Assembly: GCF_037975245.1 (NCBI RefSeq)
Contig: NC_092562.1
Span: forward strand, 28,409,554-28,473,553
Length of the DNA stretch: 64,000 nucleotides
Direction: 5' to 3'
From: Apostichopus japonicus
Lineage: Eukaryota; Echinodermata; Holothuroidea; Aspidochirotida; Stichopodidae
Of this stretch, positions 10,868 to 51,565 are shown piece by piece (within the stretch, counting starts at the first letter, position 1; every line of letters begins with the position of its first letter). The position numbers were made by a program, and so were the translations under genes. The notes under the pieces are model-generated. The model was not told the origin of the DNA, searched no databases, and saw nothing but the letters and a program-made list of their open reading frames with translations.

Positions 10868-10872
10868 ATGAT
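10868..10872. repeat. Target-site duplication ATGAT (left)
   Basis: ATGAT directly precedes the left inverted repeat (AGACTGGTTCC) and recurs at 17321-17325 just after the right one. Removing the element plus one copy restores an uninterrupted LINE reading frame (RRLI-MMYKTMNG), which proves the insertion. TGA with a TAG-starting repeat is an alternative 3-bp reading. Confidence 0.85.
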
Positions 10873-11235
10873 AGACTGGTTCCATTTCTCATAAAGAAAC
10901 TTGTCGAAGGCATTTTTGAGTACAAGCAATTGAAATGGTTCTTCTTAAGTGAAATTTTATGCTGATTACAGAAAGTCTGGTCCCCAAGCTGAATTTTGAA
11001 AAGAAGCATGCCTAATTTGCATAAATTCAAAATGGCCGACATTTTGATGAATTTTGTGCATAACACAAGATTTAAAGGACGTAAAGACTTTGTTCTTGCG
11101 TCAATACCCTTGTTTGTAAGGTCAAAGAATGCAATTATAATAATAGTTGTATCATTGGGTCATAAGTTGACCCTTAATTTGCATAAATTCAGAATAGCCA
11201 CCGTTTTGATGCATAACTGAAGATTTAAAACCCTT
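10873..11235 (+). repeat. Left terminal inverted repeat of the 6.45-kb transposon
   Basis: Matches the reverse complement of ~16950-17320, including the blocks GAAGGCATTTTTGAGTACAA, TGGTCCCCAAGCTGAATTTT and TTTGCATAAATTCAAAATGG. It has one full ~163-bp unit (from about 11010) and the start of a second (from about 11173). Confidence 0.85.
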
Positions 11236-12033
11236 TGAATCCTAATGTCGGATGATCCAACAAAACAAGCGATCAATTTCAACAACATTCTAGCTCCGTA
11301 ACCCAGTACCCCCCCCCCCCAAAAAAAAAGCCTGAAAACGGTAGAGCTTTTTAATCTGTAGCCAGTTAAGCATAGGCCAATTATAGAAGATTTTACAGCA
11401 GATTTTCCAAGGAATGGGTATATGGCCAGTCTGGGGCATTTTACTACATTGCGCAATCACGGAATGACCGCACGGTGGATTCGTAATTAGTTTTCCAGTG
11501 AAAACAGCTCAAATACACGTACAAACAGTCAGAAAAAGGCTGAAAAGGTCAGTATGAATGCAAGGAATAATACTAGGGTAATTATCTCAAGCTATTAAGC
11601 CAATTTCTTGGTGTTTCGGGATGAATGTCTGGTAGGTAGGCCTAAAGCCTAGTTTAGTTTAGCCTAGCCTAGTGTGTGAAGTTAATAGGCCAATGAAGTT
11701 AATAAGCCTGGTCTAGGCCTAGCTTTATGTAGGCTTAGTCAGTTATTGTGTGAGGTTAATAGGCCAATGCTTTGATCGTGATTCACGACTGTTCAAACGT
11801 GATTTACGACTATTTTGAAGAATATCATGGCTCAAACATAATATTTCTGGAATCCTGACTAAATGCCCGTTCCATTGATATAGGTTGCCATCAGTGACAA
11901 AAATATCTAGTTTTAGAGTAAAAAAATAGTTTCATTAAATGCACTAAATAACTTTCGGACCACAGGGTGTCACAATATTTGATTGTTTCATCACTTTTCA
12001 GATTACAAGACTTTAAAACGTGTTGAGTTGAGA
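11236..12033 (+). other. Transposon leader between the TIR and the ORF
   Basis: Non-coding. Contains a C/A homopolymer block at 11310-11328 and a TAGGCCTA-rich stretch (11636-11770, several 'aggcctag' and 'ttaataggcca' repeats). It may hold the element's promoter, but no core motif is evident. Confidence 0.5.
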
Positions 12034-15000
12034 ATGGATCCGGTAATTTGCTTGAAGAGACCATCTTCTGTAGACACCACGCTATGCATACTTTGCCAAG
12101 AAAGAGGCGGTAAACTTAGCAAACCCGGTACACAAGGAATGAACACTTTAACCAAAGCAACTGCAACTAGAAGAAAATCAAAGAATGATAACTTCCGGGA
12201 AGTAACTGACCGCCTTACAGGACTTTTGAACTCTGAACCAATACCAGCTTTAACATGGCACATGAAATGTTACCGTCCATATACAGACAGTACCAAACTG
12301 AAGAGATTGGAACCAATATGTAGCTCAAGCAAATCTGCAGATGATGAAGCCTCCAGCAGCACCCCTTCGCAAACCTGGTCCTCAAAACGCCGAAGTAGTG
12401 TAGCTCCAATTAACTGGAAACTTTGCATGTTTTGTCAGAAGTTTACTCAACAGAGACTTAGATCTATTATGTCGCTTGAATTAAGTGAGAGCATATTAAC
12501 AGATGCTAAGTTTCATCAAACAATGGGCATTCACCTTTCTGGTATAAATGATCTAATAGCTGCAGAAGGGCAATATCATCTGGAATGCTTGGGATATTTC
12601 CGACGATCCGTAGCAAAAACTCGTTCTTCCGCTGGAACTGAATTCTCTGATGTGCCAATGGAGTGGCTCTGTACAGAACTAAGATATGCAGCAGAGAAAG
12701 GCCACGTTCTTTGCCTAGATGATGTGTGGAATCGGTACATGACAATCGCAGAGGAGTCAAATATACCGATACCGAAGTCATTTATTAGTCGCCGAGCTAA
12801 TTTCACTACCAAATTGCGGTCGAAAGTTGAGGATGTCATAACCTTTGTAGTTTCAGAGGGACCTCGTTCAGAAACACGAACCGTTTTACTCCCAATAAAG
12901 TATACTGGTTCTGTAATGTATATCTGCCAATCAACCGCAGAAGCCAAGGATGACGAACGTGCTAACGATACCACCGTATGTGCCTGAAGACGACACTTTT
13001 ATATCTTTGGTACATGTAGCTCTGAAGATTCGTGGTGATTTGATGGCAAAAGAAGGCCACAAAGGTTTGTCAGTCAGTGAAGAAGATTCTCTGGAATGTA
13101 TCCCAGATAGCCTCTATCTGTTTTTGAATCTTGTATTCAATGGTACCACTCAGCTTGAAAATGAAAACATAGGCGAAGGAGAGAGAGAATACAATGAAGC
13201 AAAGCATATTAAGTACAGCTCAAGATATTGTGTATGTTGCAAGTGGAGGCAAAAAGTGGACACCAAAACACATTGGTCTAGCCAGTACACTTCATCAGGC
13301 AACACGGTCCAAAGTTCTGGTAGATTTATTTCACAAGGCTGGTCACACACTAAGCTATAAGCAAGTTCTGCAATTAGATACAGCATTGGCAGAAAGTACC
13401 CCGAAGTCGATGGATCCACAAACTGGAGCTGTTATGCCTCCAAACATTATGCAAGACACATTTATGCACTTCACAGCCGATAATATCGACATTCTCGACG
13501 AGACTCTAGATGGAAAAAACACTTTCCATGCCACCCAGATGGCAGTATGGCAGCGAGGGCCATCAAATGATGTTCGCCTTAACGACATTACACGATCAAG
13601 CACAAGTAGCCAGACGTTAAAAGTGCCAGATGCAATGGATACCTTGATCCCCGTTAGTAAACCTGTTCAAAAGACAGAGCCAGTGTTACCGGAATGCTGC
13701 GAACAAGACATCGTTCTAGAACAGTCAGAGTGTGCGACAAAGTGTGCCAGAGAAGCATTTGCTACCGACCTGACATTCAACATTTTGCGGCAAAGAGGGA
13801 CAGTTACTTCCAGCTGGACAGTTTTCAACGAAAAAATTTCCTCTCAGTCTCAACCAATGACTTCAGTCGGCTATATGCCTATAATCCAGGCTCCAGCTCA
13901 TGAATATGACACTCTCAATACAGTTGTTCGTAGGTGCTTCCAAGTCTCCGCACATGCAGGGCAGGAGTTTACAGTTCTTACTGTTGACCAAGCCTTATAC
14001 TGCAAGCTAATGGAGCTCAAATGGGCCCACCCAGAAGAGTATAAGAACCTCATACCACGACTAGGAGGGCTTCATATATCAATGAACTTTCTCAACGTCA
14101 TTGGAACACATATGGAGGGCTCAAGATTAGCAGAGGTATGGATAGAGGCAGGTATATTTGGACAAAATACTGCCCAACAGGCAATGAATGGTAAGAGCTA
14201 CAACAAGGCCACGAGGGCCCATAAACTGACAGTTCAGGCTTTGTGGCGTTTGCTAGGGCCAAGTATTCTACACCATATTGACGCTACTGACAAGCAAATG
14301 TATGGTGACATTTCACAGGCTGATACACAAGACCTGATAGGAATTCTCAACAGTCAGTCATTCGGAAGAATAATGGAAAATTTTGAAGAAAAGAGACGAG
14401 AGGAGAATGTCAACTTTGACTTCTGGTGGAAATACATAAAAATGGTTGAGACTCTCCTTATGTTCACACGTGCCCAGCGTGATGGTGTATGGGATCTGCA
14501 CCTGTTTGCCTTCCGTGAGATGTTGCCCTACTTTCTTAGGTATGACCACTATAATTATGGGCGTTGGGGTCCCGTGTATCTTGCAGAGATGTCGCAGTTG
14601 CCAGCAGATGTATTAACTGAGTTTCAGCGGGGAAACTTTGTTGTGAAGGGATCAAATCGCCGATTCAATCAAGTTGATCCTGATCAAGCGCAGGAATGGT
14701 TGAACGGAACGGGAAAGCGTGGTGGTGGAATAGTTGGAATTACCAAGACAAGTTCTGCACTCACTCGCTGGGCTCTTTCTTACAATCTGCGTTCACATAT
14801 TGCATTGGAAACCAGAAGGATGTATCACATGAGTCACACGGACCGGCATTGTCGAAATGAAGAAATGCCTAGCCGCCAGGAGAAAGACAACACTGATGAG
14901 CAGTCCCTCGTGTCTGTATTTCAACGATTCAAGGTTTTTGATCCTACTGTCCAGCCAACTGCTCTTCAAAGCATTGTGACGAAAGATCTGGCTGATGAAC

Positions 15001-16643
15001 AAATTCAAGACTCGTTGTTAAATGCTCAGACCTATGGCAAGCAGCAGCTGCAGGAATTTGTCAAAGACAGACTTGTGATAGATCTTAATAAGTCCTCACC
15101 CAATAAATCACTTTATGACCCTATCACTAAAAACAATGCACCGACTTTTGAAACCCTGTACGAGGTCAAGATATCGGGTAGTGACAAGGATAAAACAAAG
15201 ATCCTGAAGACCGACAGGAACATCTTGCAACGTCTCATCATTGCATATGCAGGAGGGCGCAAAGTGGATCTTGATACTGTTCTGAAGCATGAACTGATGC
15301 CTGTACCACTCGCCCTTGCCAATGTTAATGGTACGCTTAGGACAGGGAACAAAGCAACCCTAGCCGACGTAATAACAGCGGAAGTCGAATGCCCTGCAAA
15401 TATTGATTTCAACAAAAGTACTGCTTGCTTGGTGATAGATGGGCAGGTCAGAGTAATTGCTGTCGGCAAGCCAACTAATGCTAAGACGTTTGGAGACCTA
15501 GCAGATGAGTTTACAAAGTCTATATATCAATCGGGTTCTAACTATTGTAGAATAGATGTGGTATTTGATAGATATCGTGAAGAGTCAATCAAATCTATGA
15601 CACGACAAAGGCGCTCTAAAACCATAAGACCAATACGACGCGTAATTGAAGGTAGAGATGTCCCTCTCCCAAGCTCATGGTCCAATTTCATATCCTCACC
15701 AGACAACAAGTCAGATCTTGCGAGGTTTCTTTCCGAGCAACTCTTAGAAAATGCTCCACCCGACAAGGAGTTGGTTGTAGCTGGTGGATTTGAGAATGAA
15801 CAGGAGGTAAAATCTTCTCACACAGCAACTAACATCATGCCTCTCAGAGCGTCTCACGAAGAAGCAGATACTAGACTTGTCCTGCACGCAGTCAACATCC
15901 CTTTTGACACAGTTGTGGTTTCAGCACAAGACACCGATGTCCTTCTGCTCTTGGTTGCACATTTTCACCGTGTCCAGTGCAACCACTTATGGATGATGGC
16001 TGGAACGAAGAAGAAAAGGAAGTACATTCCTGTTGATGCCGTTCGTCAAAAATTGCCGACTGGTTCTGAAAATGCCTTACTTCCATTCCACGCACTAACA
16101 GGGTGCGACACAACTTCTTACTTCTTTGGTCACACAAAGAAAACAGCATGGAGAGTGTTTGCTACCCATTTTGAACTACTGAGTAGTCTTGGTGAAGGCT
16201 TGTTAAATGCAGATAAGATATCATCCACAGAAAAGTTTGTATCCCTCATGTATGGTGTTGACACAGCTTCGGTAGATACTGCACGTCGAATCATGTTTGA
16301 GAAGGCCAAAAAACATGAGTGTTTGCCTCCGACCAGTAATTCGCTACATCATCATATCCAGCGTGTACACTTTCAAACCATGGTATGGAAAGAAGCTCAC
16401 TGCCCAACACCTGATCTACCAGATCCAGCTGATATGGGTTGGAAGCGAGGAGATACAGGATTGCGACCCATTCTGATGACTCTGGATCCCATTCCCGACG
16501 TGTGTGTGGAACTGATTTCTTGCGGATGTACAACAGCATGTAATACCATGCAGTGCAAGTGCAGAAAGGCACGTATTCCTTGCATTGGCCAATGTGGCTG
16601 TAGAAAACGTGGACCCGAATGCTTCAACGTAAGAGACAACTAA
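12034..16643 (+). pseudogene. Transposon-encoded zinc-finger / FEN-like nuclease / CXC protein with two frame breaks
   Basis: Three overlapping frames form one protein of about 1.5 thousand residues: 12034-~12960 (frame 1), ~12960-~13200 (frame 2) and ~13200-16643 (frame 3). Each break is a single +1-type shift with no intron signals. The N-terminus has two CxxC...HxxxC modules (CILC...WHMKCY and CMFC...YHLECL). The middle has ADNIDILDETLDGKNTFH, a signature I know from many 'uncharacterised' cnidarian, mollusc and echinoderm proteins. Near residues 885-985 of the last frame, HEEADTRLVLHA, DTDVLLLL and HALTGCDTTS resemble the acidic motifs of FEN1/XPG-type PIN nucleases (EAE, DxD, GCD). The C-terminus (about 1109-1142) is a CXC/tesmin-like cysteine repeat (CGCTTACNTMQCKC...CGC). 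The frame is open for 1,149 codons after the second break, so decay is recent. The nuclease role is inferred from motifs. Confidence 0.8.
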
Positions 16644-16814
16644 TTGGTGGTTATTCAGAGACATAAATTTCATCCGTAAGTAAATGATCAATGAATTCTT
16701 TATGTTCCAATGTAATGTAAAAAGTATAAATTATCATTTTTAAACTCTAGAAACCGTTTTTGGCAAAAAGCGACATTAATCTAAACCCGAGAAAGACAGA
16801 TTAGATAACTTTTA

Positions 16815-17320
16815 GAATGGCGTATTGTTGAACTTGTGCAAGATAGGTGTGAGCATATTACCCAATGATATAATTACGGTTATAAATGAATTTTTTGACA
16901 CTGAAAACATAGGTATAGACACAACAATGAAGTCTCTACGGGTCTTGAATCTTGAGTTATGCATCAAAGCATCAAATTGGCGGCCATTTTGCATTTATGC
17001 AAATTAAGTGTAAACATTTATCATCCAATCATACAATTAATGTTATAAACGTACTCTTTGACACTGAAAACATAGGTATAGACACAAGAACGAAGTCTCT
17101 ACGAGTCTTGAATCTTGAGTTATACACCAAAATCATAAAGTTGTCGGCCATTTTGAATTTATGCAAATTAGACACATTTTCTCTCAAAATTCAGCTTGGG
17201 GACCAGGCTTTTTGAAATCAGCATAAAATTTTCATAGAGAAACAATATTTCAATTGCTTGTACTCAAAAATGCCTTCGTCATCATTTTAGGGGGATCTCT
17301 ATGAGAAATGGAACCAGTCT
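16815..17320 (-). repeat. Right terminal inverted repeat of the 6.45-kb transposon
   Basis: Two full ~165-bp units and part of a third lie here, inverted relative to the left arm. Each contains an ATTTGCATAAAT-like block followed by AATGGCCG, and 'gtgtctatacctatgtttt' read on the minus strand. The right arm therefore has about one unit more than the left. Confidence 0.85.
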
Positions 17321-17785
17321 ATGATGTACAAGACCATGAATGGCCTCTCCCCAAATTATCTAACCCAGTTATTCAACTTTACACACGAAATTCATAATCA
17401 CAATTTGAGATCCACGACCCAAAGTAACTTATACCTGAAAGATGGTAAAACGGAATATCACAAGCGTAGATTTTCCTTCATAGCTGCCAAAGAATGGAAT
17501 AGTTTGCCAGCTGAATGCAAGCATGCCAAATCTTTACCTATTTTTAAAAGTTTAGTCAATGAATTTTTCAAGTCTTAATCATCTCATTACGCTTTTATGT
17601 TCTATACCCATTTTTACAGTTTTGTGATTTACTGTTGTATATTTGTATGTTTAATAGTCTTACTCTTTGTTTATTGTTTTATAATATTATTCTTTTTATA
17701 CTGATTGTATTCCTCGGGGAAGATTAGCTTTGGCTAACCGAGTCACCCTTTTAAAGGTTAATAATAATAATAATAATAACCGAAG
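17321..17785 (+). mobile_element. LINE fragment, right part and 3' end
   Basis: Starts with the second ATGAT and resumes the LINE frame: MMYKTMNGLSPNYLTQLF ... FSFIAAKEWNSLPAE ... FKSLVNEFFKS, stop at 17576-17578. This is the classic C-terminal end of L2/CR1-like LINE ORF2. The 3' untranslated part ends in a (TAA)n tail at ~17758-17780, as is usual for these LINEs. Confidence 0.85.
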
Positions 17786-39600: not shown

Positions 39601-42600
39601 TCAAATCTATAGAAACAGCCTCTTCTCATTAATAGTATGCCTCCTAATGTATCCTTTCCTTTTCACTGATGGATGCAAAGCATCTACCACTGTCATCCCA
39701 TTATAAGTACTGTAATTGTCTTATCCGTAGAGTTCATATGATGCAGCGAGAGGTGCGAGCTAGCAATGGTACATTCTGAGTGATTTTTAGCTTTCACTTT
39801 GAGAAAGCTTGTATTCATAAGCATCCCTTTTAATGGTTGTTTTGGACTTATTTAACTAAGAGTTAGAGGGTCCAAGTCCTTGTGCATGGGCTCTTACAGT
39901 AATCTCTCTTACCTCACCTATCCCAGTTGTACAGATTGGAACCTGCTAGGTAACTGTATGTAAACATGAATATACATAAACATGAATTTACCTTTCATGA
40001 GAGATGCAGTAATTTACTAAAAGTATCCCATATCGCTTAATATGTGATTGCAATTTTTGTTTTTATCATGTTAAAGACACATACCTTGCTGGAGGCAAAA
40101 GGAATCTATGTGATGGGGTGATGGCATGTGTTTGTGTGCGTGTGTATATGTATGTGACACTTGCTTGTAAATATGGTAACTCAAAAAGTGTATGGTGGAT
40201 TAACTTTATACTTGGTATGTGGATCTGTCTTATTGAGTACAAACAAGCCTATTGTTTTCTGTGAAGTTCAATGGTCATTTGGGGTCAACAGAAGTCAAAG
40301 TCTGAAACTTTGTGAACATGATAACTCATTAACAATTCCATCTGATTCTGAAAACTTCATCATACGATGCCCCAGCTAACGACAATTCACCTACAGTTAT
40401 TTATATTAAGCACAAAGGTCTCTCTCAACACTGTCCAATCAAAGAGGCACTACCTGTTTAAAAATTTGAACTATTGTACTCAGGCATGCTTCACGTTGCT
40501 TGAATTATTTCTCCTTTTCGTGGATGTTTACAGGTTTGCCACCAGACCCTAGCCAAGTACTACCAATGTTTGACCCCAGTCGACCCCCTCCTGGATTCCC
40601 TCCAGGACCACCACCTTTCCAACCAGGTGAGACATGGTTTAATTACCAGTAGCCTTTAACCTGGTCAAAAGAATTAAAGAAACCATAATCAATGAACAAA
40701 TCAGTTATTGTTACTGCATCTGATATTTTTCAACGAAACAAATGAATGCATGGCAAAAAGAACATGTTCCATTTATGTTTAAATGAAGACATTAGTTGTC
40801 TCTTGCCATGATGTGGTAGAGATGTAATGGATGGTTGGTTTAATATCATCCATTATCAATCCTCCGTCCTGCTTTATAGTCGTTCATTTTATTCCGGCCT
40901 TCAAGAGTCTGCATTCGCTGTTCCATTTCACTGAGGTGCAATGTCCACGTGTCTCATCTGGCGCTCAAGTTTACGCTTTCTCTTCTTTTGAACGTTTCAT
41001 TCGTCAGGGATGCCCCCACCAAGTTTCCCACAGTTTCCTCCGATAGGAGGAGGAGGACCCTTCCCGCCCATCGACATGTCGGTGCCGCCACCACAGTTTG
41101 GTCAGCCACCGCCCCATATAAGAATTCAAGGCCCACATCAAGGCTCCAACAGCCCTCATCAGGGTCCACCGCATGACCCTCCACCGCAGGGACCTCATCA
41201 GATACAGAGTTTAATGCCACCTGTACTGGATCCAAATGACCCCTCCTTGATTCCCCTGGCACCTTACTATGAGCTTCCAGCTGGGTTGATGGTGACCCTT
41301 ATAAAGGTGAGACAACAAAATTCATCACATGTTCTATGTTCAGTGATTCCACTCTGCATGAAAATACCTCTTTCGATTTATTTTTTATGTTGTCATTGAG
41401 TATAAATGATATTTCAAAAGACAGCAAATTATCGTGAAAGTATACATATCACGTGTGATTATGGAATGTCGGCAATTGTGGCGAAGTTTGCTTAAAATAT
41501 GGACTGGGCACCACTCAAAAAAAAAAAAATCTTCTCAATAATAGTGACATCTTTGATTTCACACCAATATGCAATATGAGTGCGTTTACATACCTATTTT
41601 AGTCCTACCCTTTTTGGACTTTTATATCTATGATTTTTTACCCACTTTCGTCCTAATTTGTCTTCGGTTTCATTCTATGGTTTTTTCTACGATTTCATAA
41701 GGACATGCTGGACCGCCTGAGAGTGGTTTTGATAAATATTTCCATGTACAATATTTCATTGATGCATTGATAATTGAATTTTTACTTATCCGTGACTAAC
41801 TCTCATAGAATTGAGTATTGCAAGGAAAATGTCACGTGACACGTTGCAGTAACAATTGACATGTCTAGATTATTTTGGCTTTGATAATGAAAACATTAAG
41901 TAGTCTTGTTTAGATTCAACAAGCAGGTGTTATAATTGATTCATTTCTCCATCAGCTCGAAGACACCGATTACAGACCTCTGGACCCAGATGCCCTAAGG
42001 CTCCCTCCTCCTCAGCCACCTAGCCAGAGGCTACTAGAAGCAATAGAGGCATTCTATGCCCCTCCAACAAGAGAAAATCCTAGAAACAGGTAAACCTTAT
42101 CTTCTTGTGGTTAAACTTCCTGTTCATATCTGTAATCAAAGCTCTCTAACATTGGTAGTACTTGGGCCAAGATCTGGTGGCATACCTGTAAAATGTATGT
42201 TGCAACATTATTTTGTTACAATCTTGAACATTCTAAAAAATGTATTTTGTCTTTCAGCATAATGTGTATGGCAAGCAGTTTGTTATTTAGGTGAATTTAA
42301 AGTGAATTTATAATTTGTGTGGCAAGAGGTTTGTTAAAGGGAATTTATAATGTGTGTGTGGCTGTGGTTAGGGGTTTGTTAAAGTGAATTTATAATATGT
42401 GTGTGGTAAGAGGTTTGTTAAAGTGAATTTATATTGTGTGTGTCAAGAGGTTTGTTAAACTGAATTTATAATATGTGTGTGGCTGTGGTAAGAGTTTGTT
42501 AATATGAATTATAATGTGTGTGTGGCAAGAGGTTTGTTAATGTGAATTTATAATGTGTGTATAACGTTCCACCTTAAAGGAAATCTTTGTAATGATATAG

Positions 42601-45600
42601 ATCATGTTTACTACAAATGTTGACCATTTGTTTTCCTTCTAATCAGTGATGGCTGGGAACAGAATGGACTCTTTGAATTCTTTAAAGTAAAGCACAAGTA
42701 TGTGACAGCAAGAAAAGAAAGAGGAGAGCATCGTCGGTCCAGGTCCAGGTCGAGAGGCCGCAGACGGTCCAGGTCCAGATCAAAAACTCCTCCCAGGAGA
42801 CGTTACAGGTAATCCTTGTCTTCCCAAAGTGGGACCAGTGTTGTTAACTTTGTAATAGTGATTAAATTATCACATACGGTGCAATCAAATGGAGTAAAAG
42901 TTTTGAACTTTTTCTGATTTATGAGTTTAAAGATGTATGCAGTATCTATCTTAATGTATCCAATTTGCTTTCTATTTGGATCCATGTCAGTAAATGTTTG
43001 TCATCTCTCTTGGAATGCAGTTTACAGACCTGTGTTGAAAATGAAATAGAAGTGAGGTGTTTAACATATTCTGTTGTATGAAATGCATTCAGTGTTAATT
43101 AATGTTGGTGATCTTATGTCAGATTCTGTGGAATGTATGGTTTCAGTATGGTTTCAGATTGATTGTATGTATGGTTTCAGATAGATTGTATATATGGTTC
43201 CAGTATGGTTACAGATAGATTGTATGTATGGTTTCAGATAGATTGTATGTATGGTTCCAGTATGGTTTCAGATATATTGTATGTATGGTTACAGATAGAT
43301 TGTATGTATGGTTTCAGATATATTGTATGTATGGTTTCAGATATATTGTATGTATGGTTACATATAGATTGTATGTATGGTTTCATATATATTGTTTGTA
43401 TGGTTTCAGATAGATTGTATGTATGGTTTCAGATATATTGTATGTATGGTTACAGATAGATTGTATGTATGGTTTCAGATATATTGTATGTATGGTTTCA
43501 GATAAATTGTATGTGTGGTCATTCCAGTATGGTTACAGATTGATTGTATTTATGGTTTCAGATATTGATTTCAGATAGATTGAGAATTTGGTTATAATTA
43601 CATCATGTCTCTTCAAAGAATAATTTGGATTATAAATTTGTATGTTTAAATTTCTGTAGTAGTTTTGTCAAATACCTCGGACTGCATGTCGCATCCAGGT
43701 CATATATGATGCAATTCAAAATAGTATCAGGTTTTTGGCTTATTCTGCTTCTTTCTTTTTTTTCAATAAAATATCAAGTTTAAATGTTATTGCAATGTTT
43801 CTCACATTTTCGGAAGTACATTTTCAAGCACATGTTAGCCCCAGGGGAAAAAAAGAGTAACAGTTGGTAATATTGTTGAATCTATCTGAAGCAATTTCAA
43901 CATCTGTACTTCTTTGCATCGTACAGACTTTGTCTCATCTCAAGACAAGTATTCAGTTTGCAGGCATGAGCTTTTTCTGCGAATTCGCAGAATATCCGTG
44001 ATATTCTTTTCTACCTCGCGAACAAAAACTATTATCCTAACACACTGTAGCATACTCAAACTGGAGCCTATACCGCAATTTTTTTAGTTCCGTGATTTTT
44101 TTTTTTACCCCAGGCTCATCCCTGAGTTAGTCATCTTCTTCTTTAAGCTCATTGATATGTCACCATTAGTGGACTGACTAATTAAGTATCCATTTTATTT
44201 CAATCAATGCAATGTTCCTTTTATTGGATTTGATTTTCCTATCGATACAGGTCAAAGTCAAGATCCAGAAGTACATCTCCTCCATATCAGAGAAGTTCCA
44301 AATCCCCCTCCCCAAGCAGAAGGCAGCGCCCCCGACGTTCGATATCAAACTCGCCCCCGTACCAACGGACTTCCAGGTCGCAGTCCCGCTCAAGGTCCCG
44401 TTCACCAGCACGGTCCCGTTCACCAACACAGCGAAAGCGATCAAAGTCTAGGAGCCCAACACCTGATTACGGAGTGTAAGTATTCCCCAGCCCCCTCCCC
44501 ATCCCCCCCCCATCCCTGCTCATTCCCTGCAAGTTTCCTTCCTTTACAGAATTGTCTTTGAACAGGTATGGATTAGTTGTGACTTGCTGTTCGTAATTGA
44601 AACTCTGTAATATCATGAAATGTTGTTTAAACTTGACTTTTCAATCTAGAAGAGGCCGATAGTATCAAGTCATTGTATTGATTTCAGTAGAGTGATTTCA
44701 CTTTTTTGCTTTTTTAATCAATTGAAACGTCCGTTAGTATTGATTCCAGCAGAAGAGTTCACGTTTTATGCTTCTTCATATCAATGTCCTACCGTAACTG
44801 AATAGTTTATTGAAGCATTATTACTGCAGTATAGGAGTTTACTTTTATGCTTCTCCATATCAATGTCCTACTGTAACTGAATAGTTTATTGGAGCATTAT
44901 TACTGCAGTATAGGAGTTTACTTTTATGCTTCTTTAATATCAATGTCCTACAAGTTGAAAGTATTAATTTGACCATGTTTAATATTTCATCACTCTCTAG
45001 ACAACCTTTTTACCAGATGAACACAGAAACTAAATTAGGGGAAGATAACAAAGGCCACCAGCTGATGAAAAAGATGGGTGAGTGTAATTCTTGTCAGAAT
45101 TCTGTTTCTCCTAGAAGATGAAACGCATGTTATGAAAGCTGCTGGTACATGAGCTTTATCAGGTCGAGCCCTCCAAAATGATAAAGTCATAATATCACAA
45201 AATATGTAACGTAACTACGGTGCAGTAGATCTGGTTTCTTCCAACAAACCAAACATCGATTCGATTACAATCACAAACGTGGGTAGATGTGTTCGTATGA
45301 AAATGACACATATCTTTGCCAAGTTTTTGGGGGAAATATTTTGGAACAGTATCGTAATAATATAAACATATATACTGATTGAAACTATTGAAAAATTGAA
45401 ACTATTTTATAGAGAAGAGTGTGGACATAGTTGTGAAGTCAAAGAGACTAACTGATTTCTGCTGAATTGAGCAGAAGTTTTAGAAAATCGGATCATTTAA
45501 TCCGATTCCGTTGTAATTGCAAAGGAATAAATTTGGTTTATCTGGTATGGCAAATCGTTTCTGATGTTTAAACCGAATGTGGTCTCTAAGTTTAGTTCCC

Positions 45601-50924: not shown

Positions 50925-51565
50925 ATCGATGGGTCATATGAACTCTAATGACAATGTAGAAGGGTACTGTAATATATCTTGCCCGGTCCAAAGAGTTCTT
51001 GACCAACTAAAATGACAACTACTTCATCAGTTCTTAAATTAATGTAACGTGACCTGAAAAAATCACTTTAGGCCCTAATCAAGACCAGAACGCCTTGGAC
51101 CACCTAACCAATGGGTCATACGAACTCTAAAGACATTGTAGAAGGATACCATATAGCGTCTTGCCCGGTCCAAAGAGTGCTTGACCAATTAAAATGACCA
51201 CTACAACAACATTTCCTAAATTAATGTAACGGGACCCGAAAACTCCTTAAGGCCCTAATCAAAACCAGCACGCCTTGGACCACCCAAACCGATGGGTAAC
51301 ATGAACTCTAGGGACATTGTAGAAGAGTACCATAATGCGTCGAGCCCGGTCCAAAGAGTGCGTGACCAGCTAAAATGACCACGACATCATCACTTCTTTA
51401 ATTGATGTAACAGGATCACGAATAAAAAGCATTTGGGCCCTAATCAAGACCAGAACGCCTTGGACCACCAAACCGATGAGTCATATGAACTTTATAAGGA
51501 CATTGTAGAAGAGTACCATAATGCGTCTTGCCCAGTCCACAGAGTGCTTCACCAATTAAACTGAC
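50925..51565 (+). repeat. Satellite with ~181-bp unit, about 3.5 copies
   Basis: Unit starts at about 50929, 51110, 51291 and 51474 ('gatgggtcatatgaactct' variants). Each contains 'gacattgtagaag', 'cttgcccggtccaaagagt', 'ttaaattaatgtaac' and 'gccctaatcaagaccag' followed by 'aacgccttggacca'. Units differ by substitutions and small indels. Confidence 0.93.

Follow-up and report, generated by a model that had tools for sequence, protein, structure and literature searches.

Academ transposons are counted among the DDD/E superfamilies in passages of PMC9587614 and as one of 17 DDE/D superfamilies in passages of PMC10294476, where bivalve Academ elements have a mean length of 5565 bp. According to the passages of PMC10045372 that deal with the group, AcademX makes target site duplications of 3 or 4 bp and AcademH duplications of 9 or 10 bp, these lengths being tied to the encoded nuclease (AcademX) and helicase (AcademH); nothing contrary stands in the portions consulted of PMC9004415, PMC5753468, PMC10799480, PMC12730594 and PMC4298943. 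In the literature searched (Academ with XPG, AcademX), no other description of the AcademX enzyme was found. Here, we describe a 6450-bp element within a 64,000-nucleotide stretch of the holothurian Apostichopus japonicus (NC_092562.1, positions 28,409,554 to 28,473,553; hereafter, the window), which we explain, with good confidence, as an autonomous cut-and-paste DNA transposon of the nuclease-bearing Academ kind (AcademX). Its identity as an Academ-type transposon is very likely, and the element and its relatives in this genome are new families of an already known kind of transposon. An earlier inspection of the DNA letters alone (the sequence-only reading) had taken the unit for a DNA transposon carrying a gene as its cargo and had tentatively linked it to Academ, a link that is borne out by the duplication length and the nuclease given for AcademX in passages of PMC10045372.

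Results

The element begins with TAG and ends with CTA (Table 1), one base further out on either side than the 6.45-kb unit proposed before. An inverted-repeat search of the window bore out the matching ends and long inverted repeats of that proposal, with a 36-nt pair at the element ends that is 89% complementary and consists partly of flank, and with long inverted arms of 264 nt at 80%. Searched with a 300-nt probe taken from the left end, the host genome (671.6 Mb, 35 contigs) yielded 23 match pieces. We assign these to four copies of near-full length, three loci that are degraded, and three weak pieces (71–72%); the three further near-full-length copies are 97.8–99.2% identical to the window copy and have their ends in common with it. 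Two other families in the same genome, ∼30% identical in protein to the window family and represented by five complete copies, likewise begin with TAG and end with CTA when their ends are set by hand at shared inverted-repeat bases beside the BLAST boundaries. Between the three families, the complete copies have unlike ends and a similar layout. A protein search of the host genome returned at least 57 match pieces, with 40 of 492 candidates scored; the transposase family is large in this genome, and the counts given here are lower bounds.

Such TAG and CTA ends, together with a 3-bp target site duplication, were found in all nine complete copies of the three families: TGA, CAT, TAC, and TAT in the four copies of the window family and TCC, TGT, TAC and TAG, ATG in the five copies of the other two. 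A 4-bp duplication was found in none of the nine. The 5-bp duplication ATGAT of the sequence-only reading is present in the window copy only and missing from the three other copies of its family, the true duplication being TGA, and a Tc1-like TA duplication was discarded, since three more bases match beyond the TA. The element sits inside a long interspersed nuclear element (LINE), and the flanks of the LINE were joined, with TGA counted once, into a 328-nt probe that was searched against the genome. This probe gave 39 matches, 32 of which cross the junction with a margin of 80 nt or more at 97–100% identity and 29 of which cover all 328 nt, two being 100% identical. The empty site that had been reconstructed within the LINE is thereby confirmed to exist in other LINE copies, and the element moves, making 3-bp duplications as it does so.

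Some copies carry or adjoin further inserted or repeated sequences. One copy of the window family (L002) has a nested insert of ∼1.26 kb (L002:6411-7673) with inverted ends (GGAATTGTCTGGTGG) and, judged by eye, an apparent TTAA on both sides. The flank of a family B copy on contig C8 (L007, L012) contains 196-nt segments at a spacing of ∼835 nt, each of which matches part of the interior of the family B element at 80.6% identity; this array may possibly be a satellite that shares sequence with the transposon.

In copy L001 of the window family, the gene is a single open frame of 1552 codons from stop to stop, with a polypeptide of ∼1535 residues counted from the first ATG. Three of the four family copies have the gene in pieces; relative to L001, the window gene is broken by small indels near 12959, where the frame is lost, and near 13189, where it is re-entered. 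Apart from pieces of the broken gene, the next largest frames in the complete copies have 137–196 codons, and no long gene other than this one occurs in the complete copies of any of the three families. The CxxC...HxxxC modules, the ADN...LDGKNTFH signature (ADNID..LDGKNTFH in the window), HEEADTR, DTDV, GCDTTS, and the cysteine-rich C terminus pointed out before are all there. The C-terminal CXC domain of that reading corresponds to a cysteine-rich, CXC-like segment recognized by its pattern; Pfam TCR matches one of eight relatives at 3.3e-7 and L045 at 0.0033 and has no match on the window segment.

Upstream of the FEN-like part, in the same polypeptide, lies a DDE-like core. Its first D is kept in 20/20 loci, its second D in 25/25, and the following H in 27/27, and the aligned E column holds E in 21/28 loci, the other seven being shifted one position by a gap; when these seven rows are read by eye, an E is found four residues after the first D of the third motif in 28/28 loci (near-identical copies and the six sequences used to build the profiles are included in the conservation counts for both the DDE-like and FEN-like domains). 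The core region overlaps the Pfam family DUF6589 weakly, at 0.003–0.1 in 6/8 proteins scanned and in 4/8 members in a second Pfam scan.

The FEN/XPG-like domain is marked by eight acidic columns, all within the five FEN-like motifs, that are invariant in 11 diverged lineages (27–33% identical to the first). The alignment in question (A4) holds 11 of 19 rows: six were left out for stops or partial length (L036, L038, L039, L040, L021, and L043), and two more (L034 and L019) that looked close to kept rows are also omitted. Among the loci of the conservation counts, the exceptions are a first FEN acid that is Y in L040, a second that is N in L038 and F in L021, and a sixth that is E in L043; for L039, one of two rows that overlap shows the acids as expected. 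FEN1 has its carboxylates at D34, D86, E158, E160, D179, D181, and D233, with spacings of 2, 19, 2, and 52 residues from the third motif on, and the corresponding spacings in L001 (2, 21, 2, and 57) are close to these. An hhalign profile-profile comparison with FEN1/EXO1/GEN1 gave 93.3% (P 2.8e-7) over 258 columns. The VFD, EExD, DxD, and GCD motifs line up in this comparison, and a smaller FEN alignment gave 90.7%. As controls, the DDE region and a reversed profile each gave 0.1%, and none of 40 column-shuffled profiles exceeded 0.8% or a score of 21.1, the real profile scoring 58.4. The FEN/XPG-like domain of the sequence-only reading is thus upheld, as far as protein sequence goes, by good evidence of family membership.

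Both domains are under purifying selection, with their acidic residues kept. For L010 from this genome and L028, an 81% identical protein, the ratio of nonsynonymous to synonymous substitution rates (dN/dS) is 0.156 over 1452 codons, and it is lower in the DDE region (0.132) and the FEN region (0.106) than in the N-terminal (0.216) and C-terminal (0.248) parts. L028 stands on a contig filed as a Planctomycetota metagenome-assembled genome, and that contig is probably animal DNA; L029, which encodes FEN-like motifs and a cysteine-rich tail on a contig filed under a Bathymodiolus gill symbiont, is probably from the mussel host. Both are transposon genes of animal type and probably got into these bacterial assemblies as contamination from the host. 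In viral contigs, no relative turned up in three scans.

A sister lineage is marked by DUF6589 itself, which has nine Pfam matches in this genome. The better ones (L045–L048) are followed downstream by a FEN-like domain and a CXC-like tail, and three DUF6589 proteins of 1737–1882 residues match our DDE and FEN profiles with E-values, computed in the set of three proteins, of ∼1e-30 to 1e-34. All three have the DN-D, D, H, D-x3-E, HEE-D, D-x-D, and GCD motifs and the cysteine-rich tail; departing from the FEN pattern, the first FEN acid is E rather than D in 3/3 (IIEG, ILEG, and IMEG in L045, L047, and L048). One DUF6589 element is present in two copies (11.9 and 11.3 kb) whose ends, set by eye, are CAGT…ACTG, and both copies measured have 4-bp duplications (GTCT and TTCT). 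Judged by its position in these proteins, DUF6589 seems to form part of an Academ-like transposase core. No paper naming DUF6589 was found in the literature searched.

We also considered DUF6589 as a helicase-bearing AcademH and rejected this, given the FEN-like motifs and the lack of a helicase family in the DUF6589 proteins scanned and the 4-bp duplications in the measured pair. A separate Pfam scan of eight members of the transposase family at E 0.1 found no helicase family. The DUF6589 element (L045, L046) has internal repeats of ∼0.5–1 kb at 82–91% identity, and its copy on contig C13 has a further insert of ∼0.6 kb near the left end.

Elsewhere in the window, a tandem array of a 181-bp unit in 3.5 copies lies at 50927-51565, and others lie at 42297-42560 and 43133-43582.

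Table 1. Features of the element and its target site in the window
Feature	Position	Strand	Remarks
Whole element, 6450 bp	10872..17321	+	One of four near-full-length copies
Left copy of 3-bp target site duplication, TGA	10869..10871	.	
Right copy of 3-bp target site duplication, TGA	17322..17324	.	
Left terminal inverted repeat, TAGACTGGTTCC...	10872..10897	+	Inverted-repeat pair, also takes in flank
Right terminal inverted repeat, ...GGAACCAGTCTA	17296..17321	-	Inverted-repeat pair
Left long subterminal inverted repeat arm, 264 nt, 80%	10902..11165	+	
Right long subterminal inverted repeat arm	17018..17281	-	
First part of transposase gene (ATG 12034)	12034..12987	+	Cys/His pairs CILC/HMKC and CMFC/HLEC
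Main open part of gene	13173..16643	+	1156 codons, stop to stop
DDE-like core	13476..14696	+	ADNID (13476), TVDQALY (13980), RLGGLH (14058), DQAQE (14682)
FEN/XPG-like nuclease domain	15429..16118	+	LVIDG (15429), VVFDRY (15558), HEEADTR (15855), DTDV (15930), GCDTTS (16101)
C-terminal cysteine-rich CXC-like (tesmin/TSO1-like) segment	16521..16640	+	Pattern

Discussion

The movement of the element and the constraint on its gene are direct observations; the naming of its two catalytic domains and of its superfamily must be set against a number of results that speak the other way. A Pfam scan of the window protein found no XPG and no DDE family, although profile comparison does reach FEN1/EXO1/GEN1, and hhalign places the first aspartate of the FEN motifs seven columns out of register. 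The DDE assignment of the core is motif based, with neither a fold nor a profile match to a named DDE family, and a search of the DDE region against the PDB found no solved relative, its sole matches being bromodomain rows at ∼0.6 that were taken as chance. Against PDB sequences, the FEN region matched GEN1 at E 0.19 with one alignment only, and a broader FEN alignment had no match; the whole-protein profile search of PDB sequences likewise had none. Structure prediction was poor, both from three sequences (predicted local distance difference test [pLDDT] 51.1, predicted template modeling score [pTM] 0.45) and from a single sequence (pLDDT 33.8). The top Foldseek match of the pLDDT 51.1 model is indeed a flap endonuclease, from a mycobacterium, but at E 0.25 and probability 0.18, and 0/196 matches reach E 0.001 or better; VIA-align gave 0/998 chains with Z of at least 5, with GEN1 (3.3) and XRN1 (4.0) among unrelated rows. 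Finally, the filing under Academ relies on duplication length and nuclease as described in passages of one paper.

Beyond the observed movement, duplication, motifs, and constraint, we infer, as the most likely course, a division of labor between the domains. The Cys/His modules and the CXC tail would bind the element ends, the DDE core would nick the 3′ ends and join them to the target at a 3-bp stagger, and the FEN-like domain would handle the other strand, cutting the 5′ strand at excision, as TnsA does beside TnsB in Tn7. Alternatively, it may trim a 5′ donor flap after strand transfer and so release the donor. FEN-type enzymes act on 5′ flaps, and the FEN domain could release the donor in this way because strand transfer leaves a 5′ flap whenever the second strand has stayed attached to the donor. 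We put forward a second-strand role of the FEN-like domain as a tentative proposal, and equally tentatively a two-nuclease machine in one chain, in which cutting and joining of one strand would fall to the DDE core and release of the other to the fused FEN domain; the pairing with a nuclease or a helicase would then set how each Academ lineage finishes transposition. A further idea, likewise tentative, is that the DDE core moves the element and the FEN-like domain takes no part in cutting and joining but may, for instance, help to repair the donor gap or the 3-nt target gaps or act against rival repair products. FEN-family enzymes do act in repair and replication; the fusion of the domain to a transposase and its retention in the lineages examined nevertheless favor, without proof, a role inside the transposition complex.

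We consider it unlikely that the element represents a superfamily of its own, close to but outside Academ: membership does depend on duplication length and nuclease as given in passages of one paper, but two related lineages of this genome that bear the nuclease show, between them, both AcademX duplication lengths, 3 and 4 bp. It is highly improbable that, as the sequence-only reading had suggested, a FEN/PIN nuclease transposes in place of a DDE enzyme. The FEN-like motifs are the most conserved, by the small difference between a mean column identity of 50% (A4) and 49% (A3), and dN/dS is lowest in the FEN region, but upstream of that region lies a distinct core that retains D, D, and E in the loci covering them, is itself under purifying selection, and overlaps DUF6589. 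Fixed-length duplication from staggered strand transfer is established for DDE elements generally, and the fixed 3- or 4-bp duplications seen here fit such strand transfer. Least credible of all is that the gene is a host-derived passenger, or cargo, on a unit moved by a transposase encoded elsewhere: the protein has no Pfam transposase name, but complete copies from three families that differ in their ends have no other long gene than this one, with its D/D/E core, a fourth lineage, that of DUF6589, repeats the layout, and the host XPG_I genes lie at four loci of their own and are far more orthodox.

Proteins with HEEADTR, DTDV, and GCD motifs can be read as transposon parts instead of unknown host genes, and DUF6589, which Pfam lists as a family of unknown function, seems to belong to this same transposase core. 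Several families with near-identical copies and open genes offer a direct test of why a DDE enzyme keeps a flap-endonuclease domain.

Among known systems, AcademX is the closest, in that a nuclease is encoded and the duplications are 3 bp in the window-related families and 4 bp in the DUF6589 lineage. The X nuclease is reportedly of the XPG type, an attribution that goes back to Kapitonov and Jurka in 2010 and Kojima in 2020, and the hhalign match to FEN1/EXO1/GEN1 points to such a nuclease here. AcademH belongs to the same superfamily as AcademX according to passages of PMC10045372, but it combines a helicase with 9- or 10-bp duplications, whereas the eight members scanned here have no helicase family and the duplications are 3 bp. 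With FEN1, EXO1, GEN1, and XPG, the domain shares its acidic motifs in the same order, the eight invariant acids all aligning in register except the first D; unlike them, it is fused to a transposase core and is too distant for Pfam XPG_I to detect. Tn7 pairs a DDE enzyme, TnsB, with a second nuclease, TnsA. In the passages describing KolobokP, a DDE enzyme is found alongside a His-Me finger endonuclease. The element resembles both systems in joining a DDE enzyme with a second, unrelated nuclease and differs from them in the fold of that nuclease and in carrying both nucleases in one polypeptide.

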